A stretch of 64,000 nt of DNA from Trichoderma breve (Eukaryota > Ascomycota > Sordariomycetes > Hypocreales > Hypocreaceae). The DNA is taken from positions 1,302,001 through 1,366,000 of the forward strand of contig NC_079234.1 in assembly GCF_028502605.1 (NCBI RefSeq), read 5' to 3'. The position numbers and the translations under genes were made by a program. Under the pieces are notes generated by a model. It was given only the letters and a program-made list of their open reading frames with translations, did not search any database and was not told where the DNA came from. This document shows positions 538 to 27,673 of this stretch, one piece after another (positions within the stretch are counted from its first letter, which is position 1; each line of letters opens with the position of its first letter).

Positions 538-1873
538 TTTGGTATGCTAGATGGCAAATTTTGGAGAGAAAGGATAACAATTGATTTCACAATACGGACT
601 GTAGATCTGACAACTGCAGGCGAGATGGTTTTAAACAGATATATAACGACTAACATACATATGCAGATTAACTAATGGACCTATGGTCATCCTACACATG
701 TAGTTTAGCTTACCCCGTACATCCACTATCGCGACTGTAAAGCCAACCTGGAAATTAAGGTAATACGCCTAGGTAGCAACATTGAATCCTACCTAGGTAA
801 CAAAGATTGAAGCCTGGGCAACAAGTCTAGGTATAACAGGCCTATTATCTTTTTCCATTTGGAGTGATTAAGATTAGACCACTAGCATTGGTGTAAATTA
901 TTAGAAAGCTTTTTAGAACCGTCGCCGTCACGAATAATACAAATTATGGCTACTCAGTTCGTTGAGGGGAAAAAACTGGCTAATGGGCCAAACTCATACA
1001 GCGAAGTTTTGTTGTTACATACCTCTCTAAGTTGAAAAAAAAAAAAAAAAAAAACATCGGTCAAAATACACTTGCGTGCAGTACGCGCGGAGCGTATTCC
1101 TTCAGCCTTGCTGGATTTACTGGAATTGGTTGCTGAGGGCCTCCTTTATTTCCAAACTTGGCTGCCTGATAGCACGCTGTCGTATTTCAGATTCCTTCCG
1201 GTCCCATAGATACAGAAGTTCCGAATGAAATCCCTCAGGCAGAAATATTGGCGTGATGCGTAAGGATGAAGCGAAGCCGGAATTGCGCGCTTTTACAGGC
1301 AACTTGATGGTGCGATTGAAATGGGAAATGAACTCCAAGCCAGTGCTCAGAATTGTCAAGTTGACCCCCTTCCCCTACCGTGTTACACACATCCTAGGAC
1401 CACTATTACGACCTCTGCCATAGAGCTCATTAGTGCTGTAACAGTTGCATCATGATGCCTACCGCGGCACATGTGTAGCCCATGTGAATGAGCAGCGTAG
1501 AGGTCGCGAAGCCTGTAGAGCCGCGCAGAAAAGTGATCCAATATACCCCCGGTGTTCTAGTTACTACTAAACACTTTTCAATAACCTGGTCGATAATACT
1601 GACGAGTTCAATTATGTGGCTTCGGGGAAGAAACGGAGTGCCCGCCGAAAAGCGAGCGCCACTGCATCCGCCACGGAACGTTTACCATTGAGCTCCGAAA
1701 GCCGAAAGTCGCAATAGTGAGTGTGTCTTCAGTTCACTCAACGGTGAATTGACTTGGAATAAAGATGTTCACGACCACCTAATATGATGCGTCGAATTTC
1801 TACATTCACGTATTTCTTTTATGAACTCTAGTGTCCCTAAATCGACCATCTCATTTGCATCGCCAACCTCATC
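538..1873. other. Intergenic spacer, amidase to aldehyde dehydrogenase
   Basis: This 1.3-kb divergent spacer holds an A20 tract at 1035-1054, a perfect 10-bp palindrome TACCTAGGTA at 790-799 with further CCTAGG-like copies around it, and the cluster motif at 1623-1637. An 80-codon open frame on the minus strand (1117-1359) has no recognisable domain. I see no convincing gene. Confidence 0.5.
1623..1637 (+). promoter_or_regulatory. Candidate cluster operator, copy 1
   Basis: CGGGGAAGAAACGGA, 236 bp upstream of the aldehyde dehydrogenase start. It matches YGGGGAWRNWWCGGA, found in five other cluster promoters. The CGG-N8-CGG direct repeat is the kind of site Zn2Cys6 regulators bind; the regulator at 11551-14367 is the natural candidate. 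The function is inferred. Confidence 0.6.
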
Positions 1874-3494
1874 ATGAAGTCCAACACCGTCCCACTAATC
1901 ATTGATGGCAATGACATTGTCCTTCAAGACGAAAAGTCCATTTTCGTTTCAAATACCGACAGTGGCAGAGCATCGCAATGGAAAACTCAAGGTGTTACAC
2001 CAGAACTGTGTAAGCGAGCCTTGGAATCCTCCACCGCGGCATTCCCAAAATGGAGAAAAACGTCTGTTAGGGAGCGGCAAGTATTGTTCCAAAGAGTAGT
2101 GGAGGTAAGTTAACAAATCTTCCTTCCGCAATGACATGTTCAAAATCTCTAATTCTTGGCATACTCTAGCTTTTGAAAGAGAGGGCATCTGAGTTGTCAT
2201 CTATTGTAGCAGAAGAGCTTGGCTGTTCTTCCGTATGGGCTTCGATCAACTTTCATGCCACGCTTGAGATTATCGAACAAGTGACTGCTCTCATAACATC
2301 CGGAATCTTGTCCGGGCTGATACCAGAGACCGAATCACCAGACTCACTCGCTCTGGTCTTCAAAGATCCGCTTGGTGTCGTGCTAGGTATTGCACCTTGG
2401 AACGCGCCAGCTATGCTGGGAATGCGATCTATTGCTGCTGCTGTTGCAGCTGGGAACTGCGCGATACTCAAGGTAATACTAATTCTGATGTACATAACAA
2501 ATTATCGTCATGGACTGACTTTGTCAACTAAGGGATCCGAGCTTAGCCCTAGAACACATTACTTCATCGCCAACCTCTTCCGAGATGCTGGATTCCCGCC
2601 CGGAGTGGTCAACTTTCTTGTGCACAAGCCTGAAGACGCATCAGACACGTTTAATTCTCTTATTTCACATCCGTCGGTGAGAAAGTGCAACTTTACCGGG
2701 TCAACGGCCGTGGGTAGACACATTGCCTCCCAAGCAGGCCATTTCTTGAAGCCTGTACTTCTGGAATTAGGCGGCAAAAACTTCAGTTTGGTACTAGAAG
2801 ATGCCGACTTGGAAACCACGGCTTCTACAATTCTAGATGCAGCTTTTATCAATGTACGTGAAAGCAACTTTACATTTCTTCAGATGAAGATGTATGCTAA
2901 TCCATGACTTTTGGGCTATAGAGCGGTCAAATTTGTATGTCTACGGATATCGTCTTAGTGCCTAGGAAATTGAAATCGGCATTCTGCAGTCTTGTCCGAC
3001 AGCGACTCGAATCTGCTTCTGCTGTTCAAGTCAAGCACGTCATTAATAGACGAAGCACTACTCGAATTTTAGGGCTTCTGGATGACGCCGCCCGCAAAGG
3101 TGCCACGGTAATCACCGCTTCATCCTTGGACGGAGAACACAGTCCACTGTATGGCACTGTGATTGAAGGCCTTACTAAAGATATGGAATTCTGGCAAAAT
3201 GAATCCTTCGGCCCTGTTGTTGGAATTGCAATATACGACACTGTAGATGAAGCGGTCGAGATGATTAATGAGTGTGAATATGGCTTGTCTGGGGCGATAT
3301 ATACTGCGTCGAGTCTGCAAGCGATACCTCTGGCAAGAAGATTGGACAGTGGAGCAGTTCATATCAACGGACCGACTTTCCATGACGGATTTACCTTGCC
3401 GCATGGAGGGCATAAGAATAGCGGGTTTGGGAGATTTGGTAGCCACTGGGCGTTTGAGGAGTTTTTGCAGACAAAGACTGTGATTGCAAATTAG
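1874..3494 (+). CDS. NAD(P)-dependent aldehyde dehydrogenase, aromatic type
   Basis: This enzyme oxidises an aldehyde to its acid. The exons are 1874-2104, 2170-2472, 2533-2853 and 2922-3494, giving 475 residues, a normal ALDH length. Visible family features are APWNAPAML near residue 155, NFTGSTAVG near 230, LELGGK with general-base Glu256, GQICMS with catalytic Cys290, and ESFGPVVGI. The overall pattern resembles salicylaldehyde and vanillin dehydrogenases. Introns 2 and 3 lack frame-breaking signals, but splicing there restores the conserved AILKGSELSPRTH and FINSGQICMS joints. The neighbouring alcohol dehydrogenase and FAD monooxygenase suggest that the substrate is a hydroxybenzaldehyde. 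A cluster motif lies 236 bp upstream. Confidence 0.93.
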
Positions 3495-3870
3495 ATAGCC
3501 ATCGAATGTATTATGGACGAACTATGATAGACAATGATGATCAAATCCTCCACCGCACGCACACGTTTACAGAATGAGATGCATCTTCATCTACCTAGGT
3601 ATGAAATGACTTGGTAACAACTATATACATTTATATGGAATAACAGTTCCTATTGTGTTACACTTCACGTTTGTATTTCCGCTTCGTCAGATTGAACATA
3701 AGTTCATGACTTAAGATCGCATGACTTAAGATCGCTAAAATGTGAAAGGTACAGTACTGTACGGACTGGATCATATGTAATGGGATGAAAATAATAATGA
3801 TAATAATGTATTATACCTGAGAATCAATTACAAGATAGTATGTAGCCGATCGCTACTGTTTAACAGCTAT
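3495..3870. other. Convergent 3' spacer
   Basis: This is the region between the convergent stop codons of the aldehyde dehydrogenase and the FAD monooxygenase. It holds a second TACCTAGGTA palindrome (3592-3601), a short duplicated stretch (ATGACTTAAGATCGC, twice around 3709-3736) and AT-rich DNA. No gene is seen. Confidence 0.5.
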
Positions 3871-5573
3871 TTACTTCGACTGCTTCCATCGCTTCTCAAT
3901 TTCTTCCTCAGCATCATACCCATATGCCCATGCTTGCGTTACTGGATCGCTCCACTGGTTAGGACTCTGAATGAAATGCCTTCCTTCAACCTCCGGTCTC
4001 ATCGCTTCATCCCTAGCTTGTTGCTCAGGCCCGTCTTCGAAATGCCATAGCTTTCCATTCACTAGACTGGCTTCCTGCATCTGGCCACTGCGTTTCATGC
4101 GCTCAGTCTCGAAGATAGAGAGCGCCTTTGGCAATTCTGAGAGGTCTGTAACATGGGATAATGATGTTGCCAGAGCAGCTCCATCCTCAACAGCCATGGC
4201 AGCTCCTTGCGACATGTACGGGACCATTGCATGTGCAGCATCGCCGAGCATTAAAAGCTTGCCAGATTGAGCCACCCAACGTGAGATAGAAGCATCCCCG
4301 GACATAAGAGGCCACTTGAGCGTCTTATTAATCTTACTGATAACCTTGAACAGCCTGTAATAAAATGCGTTAGACCAATGTTAAGAAAGGTAAACGACTA
4401 GATCTTTCATGACTTACTTTGGATCCCATCCCTCGAAATAAGCTCTCATATCATCAATGGCCGTCTCTGGACGCCAAGTACTGGGATCAGAATGATCAAT
4501 ATGAGACAGTACCATGTTGAAAGATTTGCCAGAAGCAATTGTGTATGTCATGACATGCCGCTCATGGCCGATCCAGATATTGAGAGCGGGTTTCTCTAGG
4601 AGCCATGCGGTATCAGGATCATCGCGCATCTTTTCAACATCCACAGTTGCCCGATAGGCAGCAAAGCCTGTGCAAATGGGCTCCTTTTTCTCGTGACGCA
4701 GGATGTGGTTGCGTGCTAAAGACTTGACGCCTAGGGCAGAGTTAGAACGGATAGTATACAAAAAGAGGAGGGAATAAAGGGTTTACCGTCGGCGGCAATT
4801 ATGAGGTCGGCTGAAAGTATGGTTCCATCCTCGATTTTGACAGAAGGATTTTCTTCATTGTATTCAATGACTTTGTGGTTGACTCTGACATCTACTCCGA
4901 GCTGTAGCGCCAGTTGGTGCAATGCATCATGGAGATGGGCTCTGTGTACCACATAATAAGGCGCCCCGAATGAGCTTCGAAAGTCCGGTTGAAGCTTGGT
5001 ATAACCAATGGGCTTTCCATTGCTCCATCGCCGAAAGGTAATACCCTCAGGCTCGACGACTCTTTTTCCAAGGAGTGGCCCAAGGCCCCATTTCAAGAGC
5101 AGCCTAGCAGAATTGGGCGGAACTTGGATACCAGCTCCAACCTACGCACATCTTGTTACTCACCGTGCTCGATAAATTCAGACGGGAAAGGATAATAGCC
5201 TACCTCGCCAAGTGCTGGGGCTTGCTCAAGCACTGTAACAGCGTGACCTTTCCGTGCTAGGGCAATTGCTGTGGCGAGACCGCCAAGTCCAGCGCCCACA
5301 ATGATCACCTTGAAAAGCAAAGGTGATGATTTCGATCCTCCATTGAGGTGCGATGAGCCGTTGTGAAGCCCATGAGAAGCGGTTGTTTGATCCAATTTTT
5401 GGAGAAACTCCAAGCTGCGCGTAGGATATGATGCGGTCTGCAGCTGCATTAGAGAATGGTTCAAGGCTTACTGCTATCGAACTTCTAACCTTTATGGATG
5501 ATATAGAAAAAGTTGCCTTTTTGGTGACAACTCCCTCTGAATTGGCAATAGAATCGGTAGTGCTTGGAGCCAT
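3871..5573 (-). CDS. FAD-dependent aromatic monooxygenase (salicylate hydroxylase / 3-hydroxybenzoate 6-hydroxylase type)
   Basis: Flavoprotein monooxygenases of this group hydroxylate phenolic acids with NAD(P)H and O2. The proposed exons are 5573-5490, 5443-5204, 5141-4787, 4730-4418 and 4354-3871 (491 residues). The Rossmann motif VIIVGAGLGGLATA covers about residues 74-87, and the second FAD motif LGDAAHAMVPYMSQGAAMA begins near 367. The first exon is a choice: ATG 5573 has a strong context (CACAATGGC) and needs a 46-bp intron, whereas ATG 5449 opens directly in the second exon with a weak context. The gene is divergent from gentisate dioxygenase across 439 bp. Because the next enzyme uses gentisate, a 5- or 6-hydroxylation product is likely; decarboxylating hydroxylation to catechol is the alternative. 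Confidence 0.88.
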
Positions 5574-6012
5574 TGTGGTCGATCTTGATTGTGATGATCG
5601 TTTCACTTTTCGAGCTGAGGCATCTTCTTATTCATCACGGGCAAAGCAGACAATCTTGCTGCTCCATATACATCATGACACCACTTCACGCACCATAAAA
5701 GCGTAAAACAAGTTCCATCGTTCCATATCCCCTGCCCCGATAGTGCGAATACCCCCCCTTCTCAGCGTTCCGGCCCACCCCCGGGCAGATGAGCTGCGTC
5801 GGGGATGCATCGGAACGCCACAAACTATCAGCTACTCCATTCATTCGAAACCTCAAGATGACTGCAAGAAGCCGTCTTGCCACTGCTGTGCATCAAATGG
5901 AAAGATACAAATACAAAGAAACCGAGAACATCTCAGAATTGATCAACATTGTTGTCAACAGAAAAACATCTTCTATAGCATCTAACGAAGAACATCTAAA
6001 CTCTCCCCCGAC
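5574..6012. other. Divergent promoter, monooxygenase / gentisate dioxygenase
   Basis: This is a 439-bp bidirectional promoter region. It contains the clearest cluster motif (5800-5814) and C-rich runs (5752-5758 and around 5776). Nothing coding is seen. Confidence 0.6.
5800..5814 (+). promoter_or_regulatory. Candidate cluster operator, copy 2
   Basis: CGGGGATGCATCGGA lies 198 bp from the dioxygenase start and 226 bp from the monooxygenase start. It fits YGGGGAWRNWWCGGA exactly and is placed to serve both divergent genes. Confidence 0.65.
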
Positions 6013-7172
6013 ATGGCTATCCTAACTGAAGTCAAGACAGAAGTTGCGCCACAGCAGCTGACTGGGGACGGAAAAACAAAAGAACAGCAGACAAATGAGC
6101 TTCTATCTCAGTTACAGTCAACCAATACTTTACCACTATGGGCGCAAATGTCCAAGCTTAATCCCCCGGCCCCCAACCCAACCTGCATCCCGCATATCTG
6201 GAAGTATGATGAGATTAAGCCGTACTTGCTCCGTGCAGGAGAGCTTATCACGGAGAAACAAGCTGAGCGAAGAGTGCTTATGCTGGTAAATCCAGCCAGA
6301 GGTAAGCCGTCTCAAGTCGTTGTGTTTAAGATAGTCGATGTCTTTAAGGTAGTTCTGTTGACTAACACATCCTCGAACAGATGCGCCTTACACTACAGAT
6401 ACTGTGTATGCTGGTCTTCAGTTGGTTATGCCCAATGAAACCGCTCCTGCCCACAGACACACAGCATTTGCCATGCGATTCATCATTGAAGGCAACGGTG
6501 GCTTCACCGCCGTTCATGGCCGCCGTATCAAGATGAACCGCGGCGACGTTATCCTCACGCCAACCTGGAATTGGCATGACCATGGCAAGGATGGGTCTGG
6601 GCCAATGATTTGGCTTGATGGTCTCGACTTGCCTAATTTCCGACACTTCCCCGTGCATTTTGTAGAGCACTATGACAAGCCTAGATACCCTGCTGAGGAT
6701 GTCGACACGGACAATAGCCCCATTGTATTCCCTTGGGCTAAAATGCAGGCTCGCCTAGATGCCGAAAATGGCGACTGGGTGACCAAGCCATACCTTAAGG
6801 AAAATGGTAGCGAAGGTTTGTCTATCTGTTAATCATGTAACCATTACCTAGCTAACTTGTGATTCAGTGTCAAAGATTCTCGGTGGTTCAGCAGAGAGAT
6901 TGAACGCTGGTACTAGCTCCCCAGAAATCCGCGAGACGGCATCGTCCGTATATCACATCGTGGAAGGCAGCGGCCACTCCGTCATTGATGGTAAGATGTT
7001 CAAGTGGAAGAAGGGAGACACTTTCTGTATCCCGGCATGGAACAAGTACCAGCATTTTGCGAATGATGAAAGCACGGCATATTTGTATCGGTTTGATGAT
7101 AAGCCCATGCTGAGAGCTTTGGGATTTTTGCGGACTGAGGGCGTTGATGTTGAGACTTTGGTGTCCGAGTGA
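6013..7172 (+). CDS. Gentisate 1,2-dioxygenase (bicupin)
   Basis: This non-heme iron enzyme opens gentisate between C1 and C2 to give maleylpyruvate, in the cytosol. The exons are 6013-6301, 6381-6815 and 6868-7172, giving 342 residues, a usual length. The N-terminal cupin has APAHRHTAFAMRFIIEG with iron ligands His121 and His123, then PTWNWHDHG with ligand His162. A second cupin (VYHIVEGSGHSVIDGK, then IPAWNKYQHF) fills the C-terminus, as in bacterial gentisate dioxygenases. It sits divergently with the FAD monooxygenase that probably makes its substrate, and the cluster motif is 198 bp upstream. Related 1-hydroxy-2-naphthoate dioxygenases share this fold, but gentisate is the better call given the neighbours. 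Confidence 0.92.
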
Positions 7173-7519: not shown

Positions 7520-8546
7520 CTAAAGCTTTAACAATCTCTTCGCATGTCCAGAGTAAATACCCTTGATGGTTTCCTCATCAAATAACTCTCTAAGTCCACT
7601 ATCCATGGTCCGGCCTTGAAATTCTATCAAGTGTGCTGGCGTATATGGGAAATCGGTACCATACAGCAACCGAGACTCATCACAGACGCGAAGATATCCA
7701 TGAATAAGGTCAGGAAATGGAAACCCGGCAAGATCAAAAAAGAATCTAGTCTTGAACAGTTCTTTAACCTGATCTGAGTTGAGCGTTGAAGGTGCGTTGA
7801 TAATGGCTGCAAAGCTTGTGAAACGCTCCACAAGTGGTGGAAGAGTAGCTCCGCAATGAGAGACGAGGAATGAGATGTTGGGATTTCGTTCCACAGTTCC
7901 AGACAGTAGTAGATTTGTTACTGCGCGCGTAGTGTCAAAGAAGAACTCCAGCATTGGAGAAGGATACTGGTTCATGGGCTTGACAGCGCCAGGATCGCTT
8001 CCACAGCAAGTAGTGGGATGCATGAACAAGATGGCGTTGACTTCATTAAGCTTGTGGAAGACAGCATCTAGAGTAGAATCTCCGAGATATTGGCCGTGGG
8101 CATTGGTCATTACAGCAAAACCAGATGCGCCAAGCTTGAGGGCGTGGTCAATCTCGGCCAGAGACCCCTCGATATCGGGCAGAGGTAATGATGCAAAGAA
8201 GCCAAAGCGAGAAGGGTACTTTGCGCAAATTTCCGCCAATTCCTCATTGGTCTCGCGAGTGATCTTGCGCGCAAGGGCATCATCACCAGGCTTGAGATAA
8301 GTGCCAGGGGATGTGATGCTGAGAATGGATTTGCTAACTCCCAGTTTATCCATCAGCGCAATATGCGCTTCTGGTGTCCATTCCTACATAGGCTACCGTT
8401 AATTGAGTGAGCTATACAATTAAAGCTTGGAAGTTTCCACATACTGGAATTGCTGGCATTCCGTCAGGCTTTCCAAACCCATGCTCTTCGCAGTACTTCC
8501 TCCAGACAGGAGGGACAACATGCGCGTGTGTGTCGATTTTCTCCAT
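7520..8546 (-). CDS. Amidohydrolase_2 family decarboxylase (ACMSD / 6-methylsalicylate decarboxylase-like)
   Basis: Zinc- or manganese-dependent decarboxylases of this group remove CO2 from aromatic acids such as 6-methylsalicylate, gamma-resorcylate or salicylate. Exons 8546-8445 and 8383-7520 give 321 residues. The metal site is intact: DTHAHV with His7 and His9, LFMHPTT with His156, SHCGAT with His209 and YGTDFPY with Asp277. The start MEKIDTHAHVVPP is typical of fungal 6-methylsalicylate decarboxylases. The gene is divergent from the MFS transporter, with a cluster motif 198 bp upstream. In the pathway it may make a cresol or phenol, or divert acid from hydroxylation. The exact substrate cannot be read from sequence. 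Confidence 0.88.
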
Positions 8547-9295
8547 GATGTTCAAGTAGATTGTCGATGATGTTGATACAGTTTGGTAACAGAGCTTTGC
8601 GGTAAATAAATCTCTCGATTGTCAGTTGTGTCTCGGTTGCTCAGGTGACTAGGAGAGACTTTGTACTACGTGTGCTCTCCAAAGTGAGACAGCATATTCC
8701 ACCATAATTAGGCATCTGAAACAAAAAGTTATACATTTGCCCGTGGGGAAATTTCGGAGCGGATATCCTGGATGGACTTTCGGATCTACTCAAATCGATG
8801 GTCATGACTCTTGGGTCTCGATAATTCCGTAGACTATTTTAGCCTGTGGAGTTCTTCTCACGAAAGTGGCATCTTCCCCACGGGGAACTTGTCGAGACCC
8901 TTCCCCGCGTCTTCGCGGGCAGGTCGGAACTGCATTTGGCGATGGACTTGAACTTTCTTCTAATCAAATAGAGAGAAAGAACCCCATGCAAAACTAGGCT
9001 TGAAGCCACCAGCTTGGCAACCAATGGTAGCTTTGGTAACGCATTGCGGCTGGGTTTCGCTAGCCCCGGCGAGTAATTCTGCTAGATAATTGAGTGAATG
9101 TGTAAAAGGGGATAGCAATGGTAACGATTTCATACAACTACCTACTATAACGAGAAAGATATAAAGATGGCGAAGCGGTGATAAAAGTTGTCATTGATTA
9201 GATCTCAAGACTATCGCGAGTCTCATTAAATTTCCCTTCAAGAATTACCTTCTTCCTTGAATACTATCCCATCAACCTTCACCACCTAAGCAATT
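8547..9295. other. Divergent promoter, decarboxylase / MFS transporter
   Basis: This 749-bp bidirectional promoter holds the cluster motif (8744-8758), a perfect TTCCCC-AC-GGGGAA palindrome (8874-8887) whose left arm mirrors the motif's GGGGAA, and a GC hairpin CCCGCG-TCTT-CGCGGG (8904-8919). An additional CGGA half-site lies at about 8778. No gene is seen. Confidence 0.55.
8744..8758 (+). promoter_or_regulatory. Candidate cluster operator, copy 3
   Basis: TGGGGAAATTTCGGA lies 198 bp from the decarboxylase start and 537 bp from the MFS start. It fits YGGGGAWRNWWCGGA. Confidence 0.55.
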
Positions 9296-10958
9296 ATGGC
9301 TACCGCACACTCTTCTGAGGACATCGAGAAGATGGACTCTCCCATCCATGCTTCTGTCCAAGATGAAAATCTTCCTGTGGTCGAACCCAAACTCTCGCGG
9401 AGGGGCCTGCCGCTTATTCCTCAACCTAGCGACGACCCATTCGACCCTCTCAACTTTGCCAGTTGGCGGAAGTTCCTTATTCTACTGGTTATGTGTATAT
9501 GGACAATCATCGGACCCCTTAACATGATTTCCGTGGCTGCTGCCTTCTTCCCAATTTCGGAAGACCTACACATGAGTCTCAGCTCAGTCACTTACCTAGT
9601 CGGAGCTCCTTTGCTCTCTTACGGAGTTGCTTCCCTGATCTGGGTTTCTGTGGGAAATCGCTTTGGTGTCCGCCTTGTGTTTGTACTCACAAGTCTGGCC
9701 ACAGGATTATTCTGCATCTGGGGAGCAGTAGCCAAATCATCAGGATCACTCATTGCTGCCAGGACGTTGGCCTCCATCTTCTCGGCGTCTCCAGAAACAC
9801 TCGGACCCCAGGCCATAGCGGACGTGTTCTTTCTCCATGATCGTGCCAAGTGTATGGGACTCTATGTCTTGTTCCAGGCTTCGGGTTTCGCAGTGGGCTC
9901 TCTTATTGGAGGTTACATTACGGCTGACCTGGGCTGGCGCTGGATTCAATGGACTGTATCCTTTTTGTCGCTTGGATCTTGTGGCCTCCTTTTCCTTTTC
10001 TTCCCGGAGACACAATACACAAGACAGTCCGGAAATCTCCATCACCGCCAACCCAAGCTCATCGACAACTTCAGATTTTGGGCCGTGTCAGGAGGTGGTC
10101 GCAGCAAGGTGGACAGGTAAGCATCATATACTTGGGTAGCCAAAAGCTACGGTGTTACTAACGTAACATTTTTTCTTCGTAATAGCCTCTGGAAGTCTTT
10201 TTGTTATCCCTTCAAGTACTTGCCGCATCCCGCCGTCATCGCCATGACCATTCACTTCAGTATCATGTTAATGGCAACCAATTATATGCTTACATCCAAC
10301 ACTTTCATCTACACGAGCGTATACAACTTCGATATCAAGCAAATTGCCTTGACTGGCTTTGCACCGTTGATTGCGGTATGGATCGCCATTCCGTACTGTG
10401 GTATCCTAAACGACGTTGTAATCTCAAGACTCCGAAAACGCGCAAACTTCTTGCCGGAATGGCGACTCATGTTCTTTGTACCCACTTGTATAATTGGACC
10501 TGTTGGATGTATCGTCGTGGGAGTCTGCGCTCAAAACAAAAGCCCTTGGATTGCTCCTCTCATTGGCGAAGCCTTAGGTACGTCTCATCAAACAATGCGG
10601 GAAGACACAAAGAGACATGATTGCTGACTATGTGGTTTCTGGTTTAGTTATGTTCTGCTTCGTCACTGCCAATAACCTCACGCAAACATACCTGGTAGAT
10701 ATTTACGAAGCCCGAGCAGACGCGACACTGGTCGTCTTGAACGGATTCAAGAACTTTGCTGCCTTTGGCATTTCATATGCAGTAGTGCCATGGAATACCT
10801 CGGCAGGCTATGCAGAACCCTTTGGAGTTTTGGCGGCGCTTATTTTCGTTGCACATATTCCCATTTTCATCTTTTGGTGGCGAGGCAAAGAGATTCGCGA
10901 ATGGAGCGCAAAGCACTGGAAAGAGGCCAAGCCATCACATCATGGTGATGCTTTCTAG
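9296..10958 (+). CDS. MFS transporter, DHA1-like
   Basis: A plasma-membrane major facilitator protein, 507 residues from exons 9296-10116, 10186-10577 and 10648-10958. The hydrophilic N-terminus carries the fungal signature RRGLPLIPQPSDDPFDPLNF just before the first membrane helix. About twelve hydrophobic segments follow, split by a central loop near residues 245-280. Within the catabolic cluster it most likely moves the aromatic substrate or exports a toxic phenol; direction and substrate are inference. Intron 1 ends in a long T tract and TAATAG, and the frame after splicing (VDSLWKSFCYPFKYLPHP) is clean. Confidence 0.88.
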
Positions 10959-11550
10959 TTTTTCATATATAAGATATATTGGCAATTACTGCAAATTTAT
11001 ATGTTCAGACTTATACCAAAGTGCTAGAATCTCGTGAAATATCCTCATGTGGTCGCCAACACTTTGTAGAAATTATGCTTGAGGGCATCGCAAAGCCATC
11101 AACTCAAATGTACATGTGATGCACATGTACAAAGCCAACCCCAATTATACTACAAATCTTGAGTCGTAATAATTATTATCTTCACAGCGACTGACACATT
11201 ACCACTAAGCCCAAAACATAAATGTGTGCCTGCAGAAAACCAGCTGAACTGAAATCCGGGGGACCCGGAAAATAAAATGCTGAGGTGTGCCACACATCTT
11301 ACCCCGGTTTTTGTTGGCACCAAAAGCTGTTCGTTCTATGGCTTTTTTTCTCCACGGTATAAAAGATCCGTGATAGCCCCGGTCTAGCTCGCCTCCCACC
11401 TAGATCTTGCATCGTTCTCGCATTGTTTTCTACACACGAAGTGATCTTATCATGATCAATTAAGTGTCGGTCGAAAATACGAATATCCGGGATCGCTTAG
11501 GATTTGATAAGCGCAACATTCATGGGCCGATTGTTTTTAAACCACACACA
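10959..11550. other. Spacer and promoter of the zinc-cluster regulator
   Basis: Contains the transporter 3' end, a CGG-rich near-palindrome at about 11255-11270, a TATA box (TATAAAA, 11358-11364) and, directly after it, cluster motif copy 4 (11367-11381). No gene is seen. Confidence 0.5.
11367..11381 (-). promoter_or_regulatory. Candidate cluster operator, copy 4 (autoregulation)
   Basis: Read on the minus strand it is CGGGGCTATCACGGA, 169 bp upstream of the regulator. It keeps CGGGG and CGGA with the 8-bp spacing but departs from the consensus at two inner positions, so it is the weakest copy. It abuts the TATA box, which would suit autoregulation. Confidence 0.45.
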
Positions 11551-14367
11551 ATGAGTCCAAACACCAGCGGGGGTAAGAATGGCGAGAGGAAACGATCCGC
11601 CCCCTCAGATGATGCTGCTCCTCAGCAGACATTTTTCAAGCGTCAAAGAACAGCACTAGCTTGTAACAGTTGCCGGTAATAGAACACCCTATCTTTGATG
11701 CCATGTTCCTATGTGAAGATGAAACACTCAACTTAAATGAATTGAGAGACCGAAATCATCATACGGGATATGGCTGAAATAAATAGTTTGCTGACCTTAT
11801 ACTGCATATAGTTCCCGAAAAACACGGGTATGTACCGGGTAATAGTATCATACTATCATTCGATTTGTCTGACCATCATTCAGTGTGACGGATCGCGTCC
11901 CCGGTGCACAATGTGTGTCGAGATGGGCCTAGAGTGCTTCTATCAGCAGCCAGCAGGGGCGCCGGGGAAACAGTATGACTCGGGTTCTCTTTGTTCTTCA
12001 CGTTGCCTTGCTATCTCATGGCCTTATCATTGCATACTGACTCCACTTTGATCTAGATACTCTACAGAGCTCGAGGGAAGGCTGCACTCTATTGAAGAGA
12101 CTCTACGTCTACTGGTGGGGAGACAAGAAGCAGCTGCCCCCCCTTCATTAAACGCTAGAAGTGTACTGGATTCAGAAGATGCCGAAGAGTCAATTAGAGA
12201 TGACTCTCAAGCTCAAATCCAATTTGAAGACACGGTGGACGGAATGGGGGCCATTACCTTTGCAGATGAACAGGAATCTGGTTTCTTCGGTAACGCCATC
12301 TCATTGTCTGCCGATTGCGCATTTCTAATGTTTTTTGAACACAGGACCTTCTTCCAACATTGCCTTCATTGGACAGATCACACACGCCATGGCTACCGCT
12401 GCAAACGCGGACCCCACACGAGCTCTCCCAGTTGATGCAAGGATGGAGGGTGCAATGATGAGCATCTCTCGACCAGCATCACCAATCGCCGGAGCACAAA
12501 GTCTAGACCATAGTCTTTCGGCGGCAGTGGATGTTTACAGCCTTCCACCCGAAGCAGACATGTTACACCTTATCCGACTATTCTTTGCCGACACAGGGAT
12601 GCTATTTCCATACGTGCACGAGGGCTCTCTGCTGGAGGAGTTTGCTGCGGCAAAACAAAACAATTTCACATCAATCAGGCGCTCATGGTTATGCCTATTA
12701 AACATGATCCTAGCGTTTGCCACTTGTGTCAGCGCCCGACCCGACTTGCCTGTCGAACGAAATGCGGCAGAGTCAGATGTCTTCTTCAAGCGCGCCCAAG
12801 CTTTGTCTGGAAAGATGGCATTCAGAACGGCAAATGTCGAGATAGGTAAGGAAGATTGGATCAAACAGTGGCATCAATTAACGCATTATAGTTCAATATC
12901 TATTGTTGATGACGCAATTCCTTCAAGGAACACAGCGCTCTGCTCAAACATGGAATCTGCATGGGCTCACAGTAAAAGCGGCACTCCAGTTGGGGCTCCA
13001 TACCTCTAGTTCGTACACCAAATTTACGCCTCTTGAGCGAGAGATAAGGAAACGCACTTGGTATGGCTGTGTAGTTCTTGATCGGTGAGTGGCTAGATTA
13101 TCTTTAAAGGTACCATACATATCAACTCATCATACATCTAGGACGCTGAGCATGACATTTGGTCGTCCCCCAGCGATACCAGTTGAGTACGTTCAGATGG
13201 CACTTCCTTTAGATGTCGAATTTGATGGAATCAATGCCGTCACTGGCCCACACATGGAAATGCTGGGCAGCCCATCAACAGTATCATTTTATATCTTCAC
13301 AATGTGAGAGCCTCTTATCCAATGTTATAAGCTTTCTTTTTTGCTAATGATAGCACAGAAAGCTCTACTCGATCCTAGGTGATGTAATTGCCGACCAATA
13401 TGGCCAAAATCTCGGTTGTGCTCCACAGCCCTCAATCTCTCTGATGCTTGAGAGCGTAATCAGGTTGGAGAGTAAGCTACTGCAATGGAGACGCGATCTG
13501 CCGTTGCAGCTCAGGGCCCGACCGTGGGACGATACACTATCTGAATCTACTCAGAACATAATTTTTGATCGTCTCTCGATCATCCTCTCACTGCGCTATC
13601 TTAATACTCGAATTCTGCTCCACCGGCAAGTCCTGGCAAGATTTTTAGAGCAGATCAACAACGGCGATAGAAACTCTGAAGAGGGGCTTTTCTTACGTCA
13701 ATTTGGACATGGAAGCCTTCACGTCTGCTTAGAATCTGCTTCTGAAATCATCTCTATTGTTCACAAGATGGGAAAGAAGCCGTCTCTTCTTGGAGCTTGG
13801 TGGTTCTCAACCTACTATAGTAAGTTGTAGTTGTACTACGAATGACGAAGCGAAATTAGTACTAACCAATTTAGCTTTCAACGCTGCTCTTGCGGTGTTT
13901 TCTGGTCTTTTGATTCAGGCGAATGGAATAGCAGGCCCTATGACTGCTGGATTGGAGACCGAAGACCTTCGGACAAGCTTGTATCTAGCCGTCGAGGCAC
14001 TGCAAAATCTTGGTGGCGGCGCGCGACTAGTACAGAGATGCCGTAAATATCTCGAAACACTCGTGCGGGTCGCTGCAACAACAAAAGGTAAATTTCTAAT
14101 TCCATTTTTACATACTCGTAGTCACTTACAACGATTTCAGGTGGAGGCAATGCTCAAGCAAATTGGTTCAACATTCTCCAGCCGGGCGAGTTGGACTCTT
14201 CTCAAATGCCAGGCTTCCCCTCCGCACCGTCTCGCTCTGACACGGAATTATCTCCTCTTGGATTAGATCTTGGAGAATTTTTGACTGAGGATAATCTTGA
14301 ATTTCTTACTGGGCTCATGGATTCATCGCAACAGGTTGTAATGGAGGTTCCTATACAAAGTTATTGA
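11551..14367 (+). CDS. Zn2Cys6 fungal transcription factor, likely cluster regulator
   Basis: A nuclear DNA-binding activator or repressor of 739 residues from ten exons: 11551-11675, 11812-11827, 11884-11972, 12057-12289, 12345-12845, 12892-13084, 13142-13303, 13359-13819, 13875-14087 and 14141-14367. The zinc cluster has Cys38, 41, 48, 55, 58 and 65 (C-x2-C-x6-C-x6-C-x2-C-x6-C) with the basic run RSRKTR encoded by a 16-nt microexon. A short linker and coil (ELEGRLHSIEETLRLL) follow, then a Fungal_trans domain with YLLLMTQFLQGTQRS, AALQLGLH, RKRTWYGCVVLDR and FGRPPAIP. The acidic C-terminus (about residues 690-730) could activate transcription. Its position in the middle of the catabolic genes, and a cluster motif in its own promoter, make it the prime candidate regulator. 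Confidence 0.9.
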
Positions 14368-14537: not shown

Positions 14538-15888
14538 TCATTGGGGCAATCTCAATACCGCCCTGCCTTTTACCTGGAATTTTGCCAATTTACCCATCAC
14601 ATCATTGATATCGTTAAAATCGTACACCTCGATTTGTGGCTTTATCTTTCCTTCAGCAGTCAGTTTTAAGAGTTCTTGAACATCGCTTTCCGTGCCGACG
14701 GATGTTCCCACAATTTTCAAGCCTAAATCCTCATCAGCATTCTTTGCTCACGCAAACATGCCTTCTCATGGGCAGCTTGGCTCACCTCGAACAATAATCT
14801 CAAAGGGTGAAATTGGAACGTGGAAGTCTAATCTTGGAATTCCAACGCATACCAAGACACCGAGATTTCTTAGCAGCTTCGGCACAGATTCGTAGGCTTT
14901 CTCGGAACCAGCAGTCACCATGACTGCGTGAGCTCCAATCCCACCTGTCAATCCCTTGACGGTTTGCTCCACCTGAATAAGTCAGTATATAATTCGTACA
15001 GTATGCGAATTTTAAACAGTACACACGTCTTGCTTCAAAAAGTCCACGAATTCAGTGGCACCGCTTGTCATGCAAACATCAGCTTTATCGCCACTGTCGA
15101 CGGCGATGACACGATATCCAGAGACACTAGCAACTTGAACAGCAAGATGGCCAAGGCCACCACCTGCTCCTAGGATGACGATTGAGTCCCCTTTTGTGAT
15201 GAATTTGGAAGCCTGTGTAACTCCTGCGTATACGGTGACCCCAGCTGCATTATTGTATCAGCCACTTAGACTCCATTCATGTATACCACTAGACGCAGTG
15301 AAGCTTACCACAAAGCAATGGAGCTACTATTTCTGGCTCTAAGCCCTCGGGGACAATAGTTGTGTATTTCAGCGGTGAAACAACATATTGCTGAAAAGTC
15401 CCTGGTACATTCTAGTGTGTCTGTCAACATTGGTTCAACGTTTGATTCAGATAACAGGGCGAACTTACTCTCCCAGAATTGCTCTGATGTGGGCAGTGCA
15501 CGTATCTCACTTTGCAGGTCTCACACTCTCCGCAGGCACTATAGACCCATTTTACGCCCACCAACTTCCCCATTACATCGCTTGATACACCCTTGCCAAC
15601 TAATGCATATTGATTAGCACAATATGGACTTTTTAGGCAAAATTTATTATTGATGTACTCACGTTTGACAACACGCCCCACGCCCTCGTGCCCCGCGATG
15701 TTCGTCTCCATGGGTGTTTCTCCATAGATGCTGTGCACATCAGAATGGCAGAAACCAGAGCATTCTAATTTCACCAGAACCTCTCCCTCTGATGGTTCAG
15801 GAATAAGAATGTCATTTCTTAGTGTAAGAGTCGCGCCATGATGGGGATGGTCCAGCCAGGCCGCAGTTTGTGTGTTGGTCAATAACAT
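14538..15888 (-). CDS. Zinc-dependent alcohol dehydrogenase
   Basis: This medium-chain dehydrogenase interconverts alcohols and aldehydes with NAD(P). Six exons, 15888-15663, 15599-15469, 15411-15309, 15244-15027, 14972-14786 and 14722-14538, give 349 residues. The catalytic zinc site is visible as CSGFCHSD (Cys47) and GHEGVG (His67). The structural zinc has Cys98, 101, 104 and 111 (SACGECETCKVRYVHC). The nucleotide fold has VILGAGGGLGHLAVQ. It resembles fungal ADH1-type enzymes. Beside the aldehyde dehydrogenase it could form a benzyl-alcohol to benzoate pair; that pairing is inferred. A cluster motif lies 255 bp upstream of its start. Confidence 0.9.
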
Positions 15889-16886
15889 AATTACAGTTAG
15901 ATTGGTAGCGTGCTGACAAGATCTGACAGGGAGACAATGGCGAGCAAGACAGCTAAAATCGAGTTATGACATGCCGCCTAAAAAGGTCAACCCAACGTTC
16001 CCTGAACTAGCCATTGCTGGTATACGTCGGAGATGGACTTGTGAGAACTCAATAATTCCGATGGCTGAGCTAGCTCGGAACGAACCAGAGGGGGGATCCC
16101 GCCCGACAGACCCGGCGCGTGTGACCTGGAGTTTGAGCAGCGTTCCGATATATCCCCAGAAATGAAATTGGAAAACATACTCCGCAAGTAGCGAACGGGA
16201 AGCAAATTTCCAAACAACAAGTCTCGTAGTAAAGTAGCCAGCCAGTGATATGAAGTGTTCGTAGTTGTGAACCGTCGCTGTTAACAAGAGTTTGGATACT
16301 TTAACAGTAGTCGTATGGCTTAAATTAGGCGCTAAGGGGGTGTAATGAGTAGCAGGAGACTGCACTTTGTAGGGCGTCTTGGATATTATAATCACTATCT
16401 TGTTGTTATCTTTCTGGTACTGTTTTTGAGTTTATTGAATCTGTTCTCTTTGTAAGCGCCGATGTCTTACAACGGTGCCTTTGAAGCTGTCTATTGGCAA
16501 CTCCAGTTAACAACAGAGCAGGTGGAGAAGTCACAACAGGATTCGACTTCTAGAAGCGACTAATAATTGACTGTGAGCACTCAATAACATTATCTAAATA
16601 CAATTCTTAATAATACAAGCATCATTGTGTTCGCATTTGGAATATCCATGGGCTAGGATGTCCTTTTGTTGTCTTTTATTGAACCAACAAAGGTTCCTCG
16701 TGAACAACTTGGTTGCGTTTCCTTCCTGTTTGGGCCTAAAAATGTTGATCCCACGCTGGTGCCTACTGGCTGAGATTTTGACTCACGACAACTTTGACAA
16801 CAGCATCTCAAGTCCAAGTATTTAAGTTTCCTGGATAACCAATCTCACATCAATCTACACAATTACTAGTAACCGTGTCTAACAAA
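15889..16886. other. Divergent promoter, alcohol dehydrogenase / methyltransferase
   Basis: A 998-bp spacer with the cluster motif (16144-16158) on the dehydrogenase side. A 143-codon minus-strand frame (15964-16395) covers the motif and has no recognisable domain, so it is not called. Confidence 0.5.
16144..16158 (-). promoter_or_regulatory. Candidate cluster operator, copy 5
   Basis: Read on the minus strand it is TGGGGATATATCGGA, an exact fit to YGGGGAWRNWWCGGA, 255 bp upstream of the alcohol dehydrogenase and 728 bp from the methyltransferase. Confidence 0.6.
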
Positions 16887-22447: not shown

Positions 22448-22455
22448 CGAAGCCC

Positions 22456-22844: not shown

Positions 22845-23981
22845 ATGGCTACATCACACCCAGAGTTCAGCAAGGAGACCGAGGGTCTCGACGTGGCCAA
22901 GGCTTTCTCGGATGGAATCCGCAATAAAACCATCATAGTTACTGGCGCCAATCGTAATGGAATTGGGTTCTCTACTTGCCACGCTTTTGTAAGTTGCTAT
23001 ATCATGTGTCAGGTTTCGGTCTGTTTTGCTGATTAACAAGTTATAAAGGCCTCTCAGTCCCCAGCTTGTCTGATCCTAGCTGGACGCAACGTGGATAGAA
23101 TCCAAGAGTGCATCGATGCTATCAAGCAGGACTTCCCCGATGTCAACTGTCGTGCGCTAAAGGTTGATCTTTCCAGCCAAAAGTCTGTTCGTGCAGCAGC
23201 TGCGGAGGTCTTGGCCTGGTCTGATGTGCCTGCTATTGATATCTTGGTGAATAGCGCCGGCGTGATGTGCCCCCCAGAGCGAACACTTAGTGTTGACGGA
23301 CTGGAGATGCATTTTGCGACTAACCACATCGGACATTGGCTGTTCACATGCCTGATCATGCCAAAGCTGATCAAGTCAGCCGAGGGCAAGCCCAAGGGAA
23401 CCACTCGAATTGTCAACGTCACTTCCCTGTCGCCTACCGTTGCGACTATGCGTTGGAGTGACATCAATTTTGACAAGCCAAACAAAGAGCTGCCCGAAGT
23501 AGAACAGCCGCCCTATCCGATCCTAGAGGCATGGGGGTTTAAGGACTGTGAAGATAAAGCATACGTGCCTATCGATGGCTACAACCGCAGTAAAGTAGCC
23601 AATGTGCTTTTCAGCATCGGAGCAACCAAGAGACTGTACGAGAAGTATGGTATCCTCTCCTTGGCCGTGCATCCTGGTGTCATGCCAACGGATTTGGGCA
23701 GGGCCTTTACTGAGGAACAACGGGCAGCCTTGGACGTCATGAGAGCAAAAGGCATGTTCCTCTACCAAACCCTCGGCTCGGGGGCTTCAACTTCGCTGGT
23801 AGCTGCCTTAGACCCCAAACTGAAAGCTGGCGAGACCGTCGATGGCAAAGAGAATTACGGATCGTTCCTGGTGGATTGTCAAATTAGTAATGCCGCACAC
23901 CCCCTTGCTGTATCCAGCAGTGAGGCCGAGAGGCTCTGGGCGCTATCGGAAGATCTGGTGAAGGAAAAGTTCTCTTGGTGA
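22845..23981 (+). CDS. Short-chain dehydrogenase/reductase
   Basis: An NAD(P)-dependent oxidoreductase of 358 residues from exons 22845-22988 and 23049-23981. The cofactor motif TGANRNGIG is at residues 33-41, NSAGVM near 117, catalytic Ser in NVTSLS near 174 and YNRSK with Tyr226 and Lys230. It is longer than classical SDRs and resembles the retinol-dehydrogenase/WW-domain-oxidoreductase-like group common in fungi. The substrate is unknown. A promoter with three 29-bp repeats lies 190-390 bp upstream. It converges on the Fungal_trans_2 regulator. Confidence 0.88.
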
Positions 23982-24103
23982 GGTTATTCAAGATTATGGT
24001 CTTTTGGGCTCCTTGTCCATAGAGTCGAGTAAAGAGAGGCTTAGTACAATTGAAGATGAAATACTAGGATTCACAACATTATCCCTCTGGGAATTAGCTC
24101 GTT

Positions 24104-25710
24104 TTAATGTGCTTGATCCCATAATGCATGGCCTGGGCCATCGTGCAGGGCGTGAATCCAGGGGAAACGACCAAGGATGGTGTATGCTTCATCCCAGTTG
24201 TGAATATTAAGTCTCATTGCCATTGGCCGTATCATTGGTGGAAGCCAGTGCTCATCGTAGCCATCTGACACCCAAACACCACCAAGAATTAAAAGCCAGA
24301 GGGCGAGTTCAGGATGGTAATCTTCTAGATCACTGTCAAGGATGTCCTTCAATCGACAATCTAAGCGCTCGTAGTCCAAGATTTGGCGGCGTCCACCATG
24401 TAGAAAGATAGTCATTGTCAATATTGTCAGGCCGGTGTGATAGGCGTCTTGTAGCTGCCATAGCCTTCGTTCTTCTTCTAAAGGGCGGAACTTTGTGAGG
24501 CGATATCCGATCGAGAATATCATCTCTTGAAGAGTTTCCAAATCGAGTTTCACACCATTGTTGAACAGCGACGTCGCCCCCATCATATCCGCCAATATGT
24601 CGTGAAGATATGGTTCTAGCAAATCGTGCTGCGGGCACAATCTGGCAGCATTGACATTGAAGTCTATCTTTTTCCGCGCCAGGATATCTCGTACTTTCGC
24701 CATGCTATCTCTGAAGAATAAGGGCGGCCCACCATGCTGAATTGCAAGCATAATGTCCACTCTTTGAGACTGCATGTAAGCTAGAGTAGCTACACGAGCG
24801 GTTGTATTATTATGATATCGGGACTTACTTGCATAGTTTCATTAATAGTCCAACACTTCCTTCAAGTTTGGGCAAGCCACCACGAAGCTGAATCATTCTC
24901 TGCAGGCCGTCGAGATGGACTCTGAGGTTCCCGTATCCCTTTCTGATCAGCTCTTGACTGACAAGAGTCACCACGATCATGATTGCAGCATCTGATAGGG
25001 CATTGGGGCCGGCAAGTAGATTCGTAACATAATTGAACGTCTCTGATAAATGGTATAATGCTTTGGGCGAGGAGTCTCCATTGTCGGAGTAAATCTCGTT
25101 GCACGTTTGCATTAAGGCGATGTTGCAATGGTAAGCTGAAGATTATGATAGGTTAGAGTGATGGCATGGCTTCGGCAGACACGCTCAAACATACCCGGTT
25201 GATTGGCAAAAATGAGAGGGAGCCACATTCTCCTAACCTCATCCATTGAAAGCCATGGATTAAAGCGATACAACCTATTCATGATGCGGGTAAAATCTGG
25301 TATGAGTTATCAGCAGTGGCTTTAAAAGTCGGGTTATAAGAAGTCGCAACGAATGGTAGAGCCTCACACTCGTTCATTATTTCCATTGAATGATTCGTGA
25401 TGTTCACCGGCAGACCTGCCAATATTGCATTGCGAGGATATTCCATGATGGCCATAAGCTTAGCGTATTCTTCATCGCTGTAATGGAACTCTTTTTGCGA
25501 TTTGTCCAGATCCCGCCGCAAGATGATTGCTCGTTCACCGGCATTGACCCTTGGCGGTGCGAGTTGGAGCCTCGATCGCCGGTGGAATTTCTTGCCAGCA
25601 TTCTTGCCCATCATGACATGGCTCCGGGCCAGCTTCTTGGCCGCTCTGTTGGTTTGAGCGCCATCGACGAAATAGAATTTTGTTCCTGCCATTTGCTTCA
25701 GATTGTTCAT
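24104..25710 (-). CDS. Fungal_trans_2-type regulator without a zinc cluster
   Basis: Exons 25710-25368, 25296-25195, 25135-24829 and 24761-24104 give 469 residues. The N-terminus has KFYFVDGAQTNRAAKKLARS followed by HVMMGKNAGKKFHRRSR, the basic RSHVM motif that opens a large class of fungal proteins with a C-terminal Fungal_trans_2 domain and no Zn2Cys6 cluster. The body (RFNPWLSMDEVRRMWLPLIF, AYHCNIALMQ, LRVHLDGLQRMIQLRGGL) fits that domain. Exon joints were chosen to keep EIMNEYFTRIMNRLYRFNPW; the last acceptor (CAAAG) is less certain. A regulatory role is inferred from the family; the target may be the adjacent dehydrogenase. Confidence 0.78.
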
Positions 25711-26190
25711 GTTGAGAACATGTATCGAAAGTGTAAATTAAAATGTCTGGTCGGGAATTGCCCCTACGGTATTCGGAGTTAGGGTTGGGGAATCTCCGCA
25801 ATCATCAGTCTAAGAATAGGAGGACGACTATCTAATATGCGTTAGGTATAGGTACCAATGAGTACTTTTATTAAAATACTAAATGGCTTTTTAAATCACT
25901 ATCTTACGGTGCTAGGCATATACAGCAATTAAAAACAAGTCCGACGTGCTTTTTAACAGCTCGATACTACAAGGGCCGATTAATACAGCAGAACGCGCCA
26001 ACCAAGTTCGGCGGCCATAACAGCGCACGCACTCTTCCTAGCCATTTCCTTACAAGACTATCACATCTAGGACGCCCTCCGATGAAGAAGGTCACTCTGA
26101 TTATTTCCAAATTAGCTTGATAGAAGTCAACTTGATTTGTTAGAACATGATATACCTTGGTAGTCTAGTGTACTTCTTATCCCCGACCTG
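25711..26190. other. Spacer
   Basis: A 480-bp AT-rich spacer between the regulator promoter and the 3' end of the metallo-beta-lactamase gene. No gene and no cluster motif seen. Confidence 0.45.
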
Positions 26191-27194
26191 CTAGGAGTAC
26201 ATCTGCTCAACTATGTCATCTATATCCTGTTTCCACTGCGCTCCTTTCCATCCATTGAGCTTCTCCGGATATAGAGGCATCAGTCCTTCCAAAATAGCAT
26301 CGTGAGCCAATGCAGCCATTACATCCCCCCGGCTCTGTAACAAATTTACTTTCGCAATAGTAGAGATTGCCGTTAGGGGATCTTTATGAAAGCTTGGTGT
26401 CCCATTTGGACCAACAGTGGTACTGACTGGTCGCGCTCCTACTAGCAATGCGCGATGATGGCAACAATCACCACCCAAGAACACCCATTCATCCGTATCT
26501 GTGTGTGCCAATGCACCTAGATGGCCAGGCATATGACCAGGTGTGTCAAGAAGGTAGAATGAACCATCGGAAAAATAATCGTATGCGCGCTCAAAGGGTC
26601 CGATCGGAACCCACGGATCTGTCTCAAATGAAAGCTCTCGATACTTTTTGTGTTCAATGACGACAGATAAAAATGGCGATTTAGCTGCTCTAGGATATCC
26701 TGGAGTGGTTGCCGCAGAAGATCCTGGGCCAGTCACAAAAGTGGCATGAGAAAACTTGGCTGGATCTCCGGTGTGGTCAAAGTGAAGGTGTGAAAACACA
26801 ACAGTTGAGATATCAGAAGATTTTACCGGGCCTTCATCAAGAAGATCGGTGGCATCTTTTGGTACGACTGGTGAAATGTAAGGATAGTCAGCCCGGATGA
26901 CGTCCGGATTGTTCTCTAGTTCCTATCATGGAGGAGCTGTCAGTACGGCAGCACCGCTTCATGGAAAGACTAATAATAATAACACACTTTTCTCATTCCA
27001 AGATCGAACAGAATGTGTTCGCCAGATGGATGACTAATTAGGAAGCTAAAATCGGGAGAGAATTGTCTTGCTTTCCGCATATCACTGTCGCCATCTTCAA
27101 AGAGCCATCGATCGGGTAAGTAGAGTTTGCCAGTGGGGAGCGCAGAAACGTCAACTGTCGCTGATGGAGAAGGCAGCTTCCCCTTCACGGTCAT
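26191..27194 (-). CDS. Metallo-beta-lactamase-fold hydrolase (lactonase-like)
   Basis: Exons 27194-26988 and 26922-26191 give 312 residues. The zinc motif HxHxDH is SHLHFDHTGDP with His114, His116, Asp118 and His119. DTPGHMPGHLG (a further His ligand) and FLGGDCCHH (bridging Asp) follow, as in AiiA-type N-acyl-homoserine lactonases and related fungal hydrolases. There is no signal peptide, so it is probably cytosolic. It is divergent from the fumarylacetoacetate-hydrolase-family gene over 479 bp that contain a cluster motif, so it may hydrolyse a lactone or thioester intermediate of the same pathway. That link is inference. Confidence 0.85.
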
Positions 27195-27673
27195 GGTGAC
27201 AAGTCAGATAATGCTAGCAAATGATGCTATTTTACAGAGGTTTGCATGTGTTGGTAAAGTTAAGACGGTTCAAATAAATAATGAAGTTGTGCGATTTGAT
27301 AGAAGCTTATAAGTATTTGATGAGGATTAAAGCTGTCATAGAAAGATCTTATGACGGCGTCAACTAACCAAACGATCGGGACTTGGGACTAAGCACCTTA
27401 TGCAAGAAGATCGCATATCTAGCGCCACCCCAGGCTCTAAAGCCGTGTAAAGGCAAATAAACCCGAAAGTTCATGTTAACTGCCCCCGCCGGAAACGCGT
27501 CCGAAACATCCCCGGAATGTGGCTTACACTCATCGAACCCATTCGGATACCGTCCCCAGATCCCCGGATTGTTAGTAGTAGTGTTTCATGAAATAAACAA
27601 TGATTTAAATTAATCTCCGTCATCGAATAGCTTGATTAGTTAGCATTGTATACTTGTATCTAAATCTACGAAG
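27195..27673. other. Divergent promoter, lactonase-like / FAH-family hydrolase
   Basis: A 479-bp spacer with the cluster motif at 27500-27514 and further CGGA and TCCCC half-sites between 27490 and 27575. No gene is seen. Confidence 0.55.
27500..27514 (-). promoter_or_regulatory. Candidate cluster operator, copy 6
   Basis: Read on the minus strand it is CGGGGATGTTTCGGA, an exact fit to YGGGGAWRNWWCGGA. It lies 159 bp from the FAH-family start and 305 bp from the lactonase-like start, more than 11 kb from the nearest other copy. Confidence 0.62.

Follow-up and report, generated by a model that had tools for sequence, protein, structure and literature searches.

How a set of aromatic-catabolism genes comes to be controlled together is the question raised by one locus of Trichoderma breve, where the promoters share a short DNA element. 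Here we examine a 64,000-nucleotide stretch of contig NC_079234.1 (positions 1,302,001 to 1,366,000; hereafter the window, with coordinates counted from its first letter), in which six promoters between 1623 and 27514 carry the 15-bp element Y-GGGG-N6-CGGA. We consider this element probably the operator of a pathway-specific regulon, bound by the Zn2Cys6 protein encoded in the same cluster (11551..14367, plus strand)—a prediction made from DNA sequence. As a prediction, the operator and its regulon are genuine and well localised, novel in their particulars but of an ordinary kind.

An earlier note on this DNA had listed six 15-mers, and direct inspection of the sequence placed all of them at the coordinates and on the strands given there. 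Site CGGGGAAGAAACGGA (1623..1637, plus) lies 236 bp upstream of the ATG of an aldehyde dehydrogenase (ALDH) gene, with a divergent amidase gene starting at 537 on the minus strand. Between the divergent genes for a monooxygenase dependent on flavin adenine dinucleotide (FAD) and a gentisate 1,2-dioxygenase (GDO) stands CGGGGATGCATCGGA (5800..5814, plus), 198 bp from the GDO ATG and 350 bp from that of the monooxygenase. Next comes TGGGGAAATTTCGGA (8744..8758, plus), 197 bp from the ATG of a decarboxylase-like amidohydrolase gene and 537 bp from that of an MFS transporter gene; CGGGGCTATCACGGA (11367..11381, minus) lies 169 bp ahead of the ATG of the Zn2Cys6 gene itself, as had been claimed. 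The remaining two are TGGGGATATATCGGA (16144..16158, minus), 255 bp from the ATG of a zinc alcohol dehydrogenase (ADH) gene, and CGGGGATGTTTCGGA (27500..27514, minus), 159 bp from the ATG of an FAH-family hydrolase gene and 305 bp from a metallo-beta-lactamase-fold gene. These distances, which rest on the predicted ATGs of our own gene models, agree with the spacing of 160-260 bp put forward earlier; the orientation of the sites relative to gene direction is variable.

The invariant parts of the element are GGGG and CGGA, held 6 bp apart, and the spacer reads (A/C)(A/T)(A/G)NN(A/T) in the six sites and in a further match at 6639. The consensus first proposed, YGGGGAWRNWWCGGA, describes five of the six sites but fails for the one at 11367; likewise, the description as a CGG-N8-CGG direct repeat is exact for four sites, but the other two begin with TGG. 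Mean pairwise identity among the six sites is 74% in the core and 22% and 25% in the 40-bp flanks; because the flanks are unrelated, what the promoters share is a short conserved element, which speaks against the copying of a whole promoter. At the decarboxylase-like gene the site ends 10 bp ahead of TATAACTT, and at the regulator gene it starts 1 bp after the TATA box TATAAAAG (11358-11365). Two weaker matches accompany the six sites: a pattern scan gave the loose match CGGGGGTGGGCCGGA (5769..5783, minus), which has a GC-rich spacer and is oriented toward the monooxygenase in the monooxygenase/GDO promoter, and the amidase/ALDH intergenic region contains CGGGGGTATATTGGA (1537..1551, minus), where the second CGG is replaced by TGG and the position weight matrix score is 14.3.

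The clustering of the element is not random. In the six intergenic promoters, which total 5,016 bp, we compared all pairs of 4-mers separated by gaps of 0-12, excluding palindromic dyads, AAAA, TTTT, and dinucleotide-repeat words; GGGG-N6-CGGA was the top dyad, with 7 copies against 0.15 expected, and 0 of 400 promoter block shuffles produced an equally extreme dyad when all allowed dyads were compared. It was again the top dyad over positions 1-28600, coding DNA included, under the same exclusions (1 of 300 shuffles scored higher). Across the window, YGGGGN6CGGA has 8 matches, all within 1623-27514, where 0.56 would be expected—a count reached by none of 100 dinucleotide shuffles. The promoters alone hold 7 matches in their 5,016 bp, where the genome rate predicts 0.056 (Poisson P 3e-13, uncorrected for a pattern chosen afterwards). 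A matrix scan of the window had been proposed in the earlier note; with leave-one-out matrices applied to all positions on both strands, five sites rank 1-2, with 6639 as their sole competitor, and the 11367 site ranks sixth.

The whole genome (38.5 Mb in 9 contigs) gives these counts their scale. YGGGGN6CGGA has 432 matches genome-wide (reversed control, 553), YGGGGMWRNNWCGGA has 34 (control 28), and YGGGGAWN3WCGGA has 30 (control 22), whereas the cluster holds 8, 7, and 6 of them against about 0.3, 0.02, and 0.02 expected; the tight patterns had been built from these sites, a choice for which the P values are uncorrected. Nowhere except in this cluster do more than two of the 34 tight-pattern places fall within 30 kb, and a 142-kb background (window 28601-64000, L038, L039, and the DNA flanking 29 loci, with L033 and the cluster's own loci excluded) contains no YGGGGN6CGGA, where the genome rate predicts about 1.6. 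Among the 27 YGGGGMWRNNWCGGA matches outside the cluster, 23 were viewed in 3-kb context: 12 lie in an open frame whose codon use resembles that of coding DNA and 11 do not, one of the latter being the FAH site of the paralogous cluster D. At C2:3069867, one base off the 16144 site, no catabolic neighbour was recognised by eye. The possibility had been raised that a matrix would hit random DNA just as often; the pattern does occur elsewhere, but its density at the cluster is exceptional. The idea that the motif alone marks out a genome-wide regulon was rejected, since matches elsewhere are about as frequent as those of the reversed control.

The candidate binder is a 739-residue protein encoded in ten exons. 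It has a six-cysteine binuclear zinc cluster at residues 37-71 (PF00172, E 1.8e-10) and a middle homology region, Fungal_trans, at residues 232-484 (PF04082, E 6e-37). Alignment of its zinc cluster with those of GAL4 and HAP1 indicates relatedness to both, and HAP1 binds direct repeats. The content of the sites suggests that the regulator recognises CGG repeats, and it is the natural and simplest candidate: its own promoter carries a site and its gene is among the targets. In the mechanism we propose, the protein would dimerise through a coiled-coil-like segment behind the zinc cluster, and the dimer would bind two unequal direct half-sites, (C/T)GGGG and CGGA, 6 bp apart across a spacer made up mostly of A and T. 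In the presence of an aromatic inducer, the regulator would activate the genes for ALDH, GDO (together with the divergent monooxygenase), the 6-methylsalicylate-decarboxylase-like protein, ADH, and the FAH-family hydrolase, and it would control its own gene through the weaker 11367 site. Because that site sits just after the TATA box, the regulator may damp its own expression.

Zn2Cys6 proteins that read direct CGG half-sites are already known, AmyR and TerR among them. AmyR of Aspergillus is an activator of amylolytic genes that binds CGGN8CGG (PMC4943734). Our element resembles it in the direct repeat and 8-bp spacer, four of six sites being exact CGG-N8-CGG and two TGG-N8-CGG; in contrast, the T preferred by AmyR at the fifth spacer base (PMC4943734) occurs in none of the six, the targets here belong to aromatic catabolism, and the extra GG and final A are fixed. 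The claim of an undescribed regulon with its own binding site is supported in part: the evidence for a shared operator is good, but the direct CGG-N8 site type is one already known from AmyR. TerR, of the Aspergillus terreus terrein cluster, has TCGGHHWYHCGGH in most promoters of one cluster (PMC4360782); it resembles our case in its CGG direct repeat, in having W within the spacer, and in restricting the base that follows the second CGG, and differs in its N5 spacer (N8 here), its biosynthetic cluster, and an N-terminus in which no coiled coil was detected (PMC4360782). A further comparison is the salicylate sensor Rss1 of Ustilago maydis, a Zn2Cys6 protein that homodimerises in yeast two-hybrid assays, acts on salicylate-responsive genes, and is thought possibly to regulate itself (PMC5082525). 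The likeness lies in these features of the protein; the DNA site of Rss1 was not determined in PMC5082525.

The closest functional counterpart is Gtf1p of Candida parapsilosis, a Zn2Cys6 activator in a gentisate cluster comprising MNX2, HBT1, GDX1, FPH1, GFA1, and GTF1 (PMC8929692). That cluster includes a 3-hydroxybenzoate 6-hydroxylase and has SYGGRG sites nearby, and the motif is also present at an amidohydrolase-like gene, which is co-induced; the inverted repeat GGAN7TCC is bound by Gtf1p in gel shifts with cell extracts, and its own gene has no such motif upstream (PMC8929692). As in that regulon, the Zn2Cys6 gene here is clustered with gentisate pathway genes; unlike it, the element here is a direct repeat and occurs in the regulator's own promoter. 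A Gtf1-type code was rejected for the window, where GGAN7TCC is not enriched: it occurs in two of the six promoters (2 of 13 window matches, with about 1 expected from window density). The regulon so appears to resemble that of Gtf1 but to use a different DNA code. Separately, a GGAN7TCC at 8756-8768 overlaps the end of the 8744 site.

Related clusters in the same genome bear on which protein might bind the element. The GDO gene has three paralogous loci elsewhere, and 73 stretches match the regulator, a count that takes in its own exons. Of the six best-scoring regulator paralogue loci, all but C6:792 kb lie at most 10.5 kb from a relative of the GDO or the monooxygenase; with 34 such loci counted, about 2% would be expected per regulator locus, the cut at six loci being our own choice. 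Cluster D (C3:6157-6174 kb) comprises a Zn2Cys6 paralogue, a GDO (47%), an FAH-family gene (59% over the best stretch) encoding the top-scoring paralogue of the window's FAH-family hydrolase, and a P450 and an ALDH assigned by eye. It has two exact YGGGGN6CGGA sites, TGGGGTTAGCTCGGA ahead of the regulator and CGGGGAAAGCTCGGA 286 bp ahead of the FAH gene, along with CGGGGGTATCACGGG and CGGAAAGTAGTCGGA between the P450 and ALDH genes; the regulator start is uncertain, the site lying 206 bp before one in-frame ATG and 23 bp before an earlier one. Two exact sites compare with 0.19 expected (P 0.015), the FAH site having been known beforehand. Cluster B (C6:1602-1612 kb) is compact, in the order FAH - Zn2Cys6 (38%, the best-scoring regulator paralogue) - ALDH (by eye) - GDO (61%), and its ALDH/GDO promoter contains CGGGGGATAATCGG and CGGGTGTGTATCGG, both CGG-N8-CGG in the same orientation with starts 47 bp apart (0.13 expected). 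The promoters of B and D pooled hold four YGGGGN6CGG in 5.5 kb against 0.31 expected; these promoters were picked after the matches had been seen, and the figure is excluded as evidence. Regulator relatives also occur at three further loci. Locus C (C6:3910-3927 kb), a third cluster of gentisate type, has a GDO, a monooxygenase, and frames judged by eye to be fumarase-like, glutathione-transferase/isomerase-like, or lyase-like, with an FAH relative near C6:3933 kb; the other two loci are E (C2:138-146 kb) and F (C1:2639-2648 kb).

We read these paralogous clusters as partial support for the predicted operator, with the element exact in D, present as CGG-N8-CGG only in B, and absent in C, E, and F. 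They also bear on the alternative that survives best, namely that the operator is genuine and shared but is bound by another protein, either a heterodimer or a paralogue such as the cluster D regulator, which would place several gentisate clusters under common control. The exact sites in cluster D and the abundance of regulator relatives speak for another binder, but the local regulator is among the targets, its own promoter bears a site, and it is the simplest choice; we think this alternative unlikely. A broader idea, offered tentatively and judged improbable, is that a whole paralogous family of gentisate-cluster regulators in this genome shares a CGGGG-N6-CGG code with small differences in spacer and end: a final A and A/T spacer in the window cluster, a AGCTCGGA end in D, and no final A in B. 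Clusters for different aromatics might then be insulated or cross-wired by single-base changes in one direct-repeat site, with the regulator damping itself after the TATA box.

Carbon repression offers another account of the G-rich half, as the motif SYGGRG is also applied to CreA. Under this explanation the YGGGG half would be a CreA/CRE1 site and the CGGA half that of a second factor. SYGGRG, which is stated for Mig1 in PMC8929692, is fully matched in four of the six sites, where C or G precedes the Y; it occurs at 4.4 per kb in the promoters (sites included) against 3.0 in the background, and GGGG alone at 9.4 against 5.7 per kb. However, the base before the Y varies (T, T, G, C, C, C), the 6-bp gap and CGGA are fixed, and CreA has no need for CGGA. 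CreA as the driver was rejected because the base before the Y is not conserved, and we regard this explanation as very improbable.

The regulon reading must also be weighed against chance combined with selection by eye, and several observations count against a regulon. When the dyad test is run without exclusions, TTTT dyads outrank GGGG-N6-CGGA, the best of 60 shuffles reaches 8.9 against its 7.5, and the whole-region result is not significant. A good match, CGGGGAAGTGTCGGA (6639..6653, minus), lies in coding DNA within GDO exon 2; it was absent from the earlier note, may be due to chance, and has a matrix score of 19.1 against 19.4 for the 11367 site, so that the note's finding of no equal match is wrong, and the motif itself is not confined to intergenic DNA. 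Away from the cluster, matches occur near control level, with 24 of the 30 YGGGGAWN3WCGGA matches elsewhere. The upstream half-site is TGG in two of six sites, and neither the MFS start (nearest site 537 bp away) nor the amidase start (1,085 bp) has a site close by. Among the paralogues, the cluster B sites are without the final A; YGGGGN6CGG is missing from loci C, E, and F despite their regulator relatives, and their 3, 4, and 4 CGG-N8-CGG (6.0, 2.8, and 3.2 expected) are not clearly above background; and B to F together (61 kb) hold two exact sites against 0.67 expected (P 0.15, not significant). The pattern was, moreover, found afterwards, and one whole-region shuffle did score higher. Against chance stand the promoter and window shuffles, none of which matched the observed values, the leave-one-out ranks of five sites, and the similar distance to six gene starts; we consider chance highly improbable. 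That the element is borne by a dispersed repeat or duplicated promoter is next to impossible and was rejected, as the 40-bp flanks are at chance identity, contradicting this reading, and no site lies in the 20 listed of at least 60 direct repeat families or the 25 listed of at least 237 inverted pairs.

Read as an operator for the cluster's own regulator, the element supplies a concrete predicted binding site and target list for a regulator of Trichoderma aromatic-acid catabolism; it also connects the pathway with a distant FAH gene and points to a substrate class. The same pathway seems to be wired with different DNA codes, because the site of the yeast counterpart is inverted. Among the literature matches listed, from a coverage that mostly leaves out subscription journals, there was no description of this Trichoderma regulon and no gentisate regulator from a filamentous fungus whose site is known. 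In the main text of a Trichoderma atroviride motif resource the words 'gentisate' and 'aromatic' are absent (PMC8637145).

The genes were assigned from our own gene models and Pfam, with PDB comparison for three of them; the ALDH start and the zinc-cluster exons of the regulator were spliced by hand. At the left edge are the first exons of the amidase (1..537, minus; family by eye), which continues left of the window; about 15 kb to its left, at L038:3280-4248, lies a glutathione-transferase-like gene named by eye. The ALDH (1874..3494, plus; PF00171) has four exons. The monooxygenase (3871..5449, minus; Pfam and PDB) has an uncertain start codon, and its best PDB matches are a 4-hydroxybenzoate decarboxylase (8gsm) and a decarboxylative vanillate 1-hydroxylase (8x38), with a further match to 4bjy, 'probable salicylate monooxygenase'; its exact reaction is ambiguous, as the closest structures include decarboxylating 1-hydroxylases. 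The GDO (6013..7172, plus; Pfam and PDB) is a bicupin (2d40, E 8.5e-69; 4fag, E 1.4e-55) with Cupin_2 in two stretches. The amidohydrolase-2 family protein (7520..8546, minus; Pfam and PDB) has relatives named 6-methylsalicylate decarboxylase or YanB: its identity is 67% with a protein called Decarboxylase yanB and 97% with one whose UniRef name is cut at '6-methylsalicyl' (database names and not function tests). The MFS transporter (9296..10958, plus) and ADH (14538..15888, minus) were assigned by Pfam, as was the FAH-family hydrolase (27674..28534, plus), a probable fumarylpyruvate hydrolase. Between the ADH gene and the metallo-beta-lactamase-fold and FAH genes are several genes without a site, including a short-chain dehydrogenase. 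The regulator is 98% identical to a protein of Trichoderma afarasin, a member of the harzianum clade, and the amidohydrolase 97% to a Trichoderma harzianum CBS 226.95 protein, which places the genome in Trichoderma, within that clade. For the Trichoderma austrokoningii proteins resembling the regulator and the decarboxylase, the longest contig given is 7,883 bp in each case, which suggests that the linkage of the two genes is conserved.

The cluster probably breaks down a small aromatic acid, and its genes fit a 6-methylsalicylate/3-hydroxybenzoate to gentisate route. From general pathway knowledge we take the route to run through m-cresol: 6-methylsalicylate would be converted to m-cresol, 3-hydroxybenzyl alcohol, 3-hydroxybenzaldehyde, 3-hydroxybenzoate, and gentisate, and gentisate through maleylpyruvate/fumarylpyruvate to fumarate and pyruvate. 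Neither a methyl hydroxylase nor a maleylpyruvate isomerase was seen among the gene models made; the FAH gene, 20 kb from the GDO gene yet equipped with a site, would provide the final expected step. Farther along the window, seven GTAC-N2-GTAC palindromes occur within 3.5 kb (45432-48966), forming the top non-homopolymer dyad of 28601-64000 on both strands.

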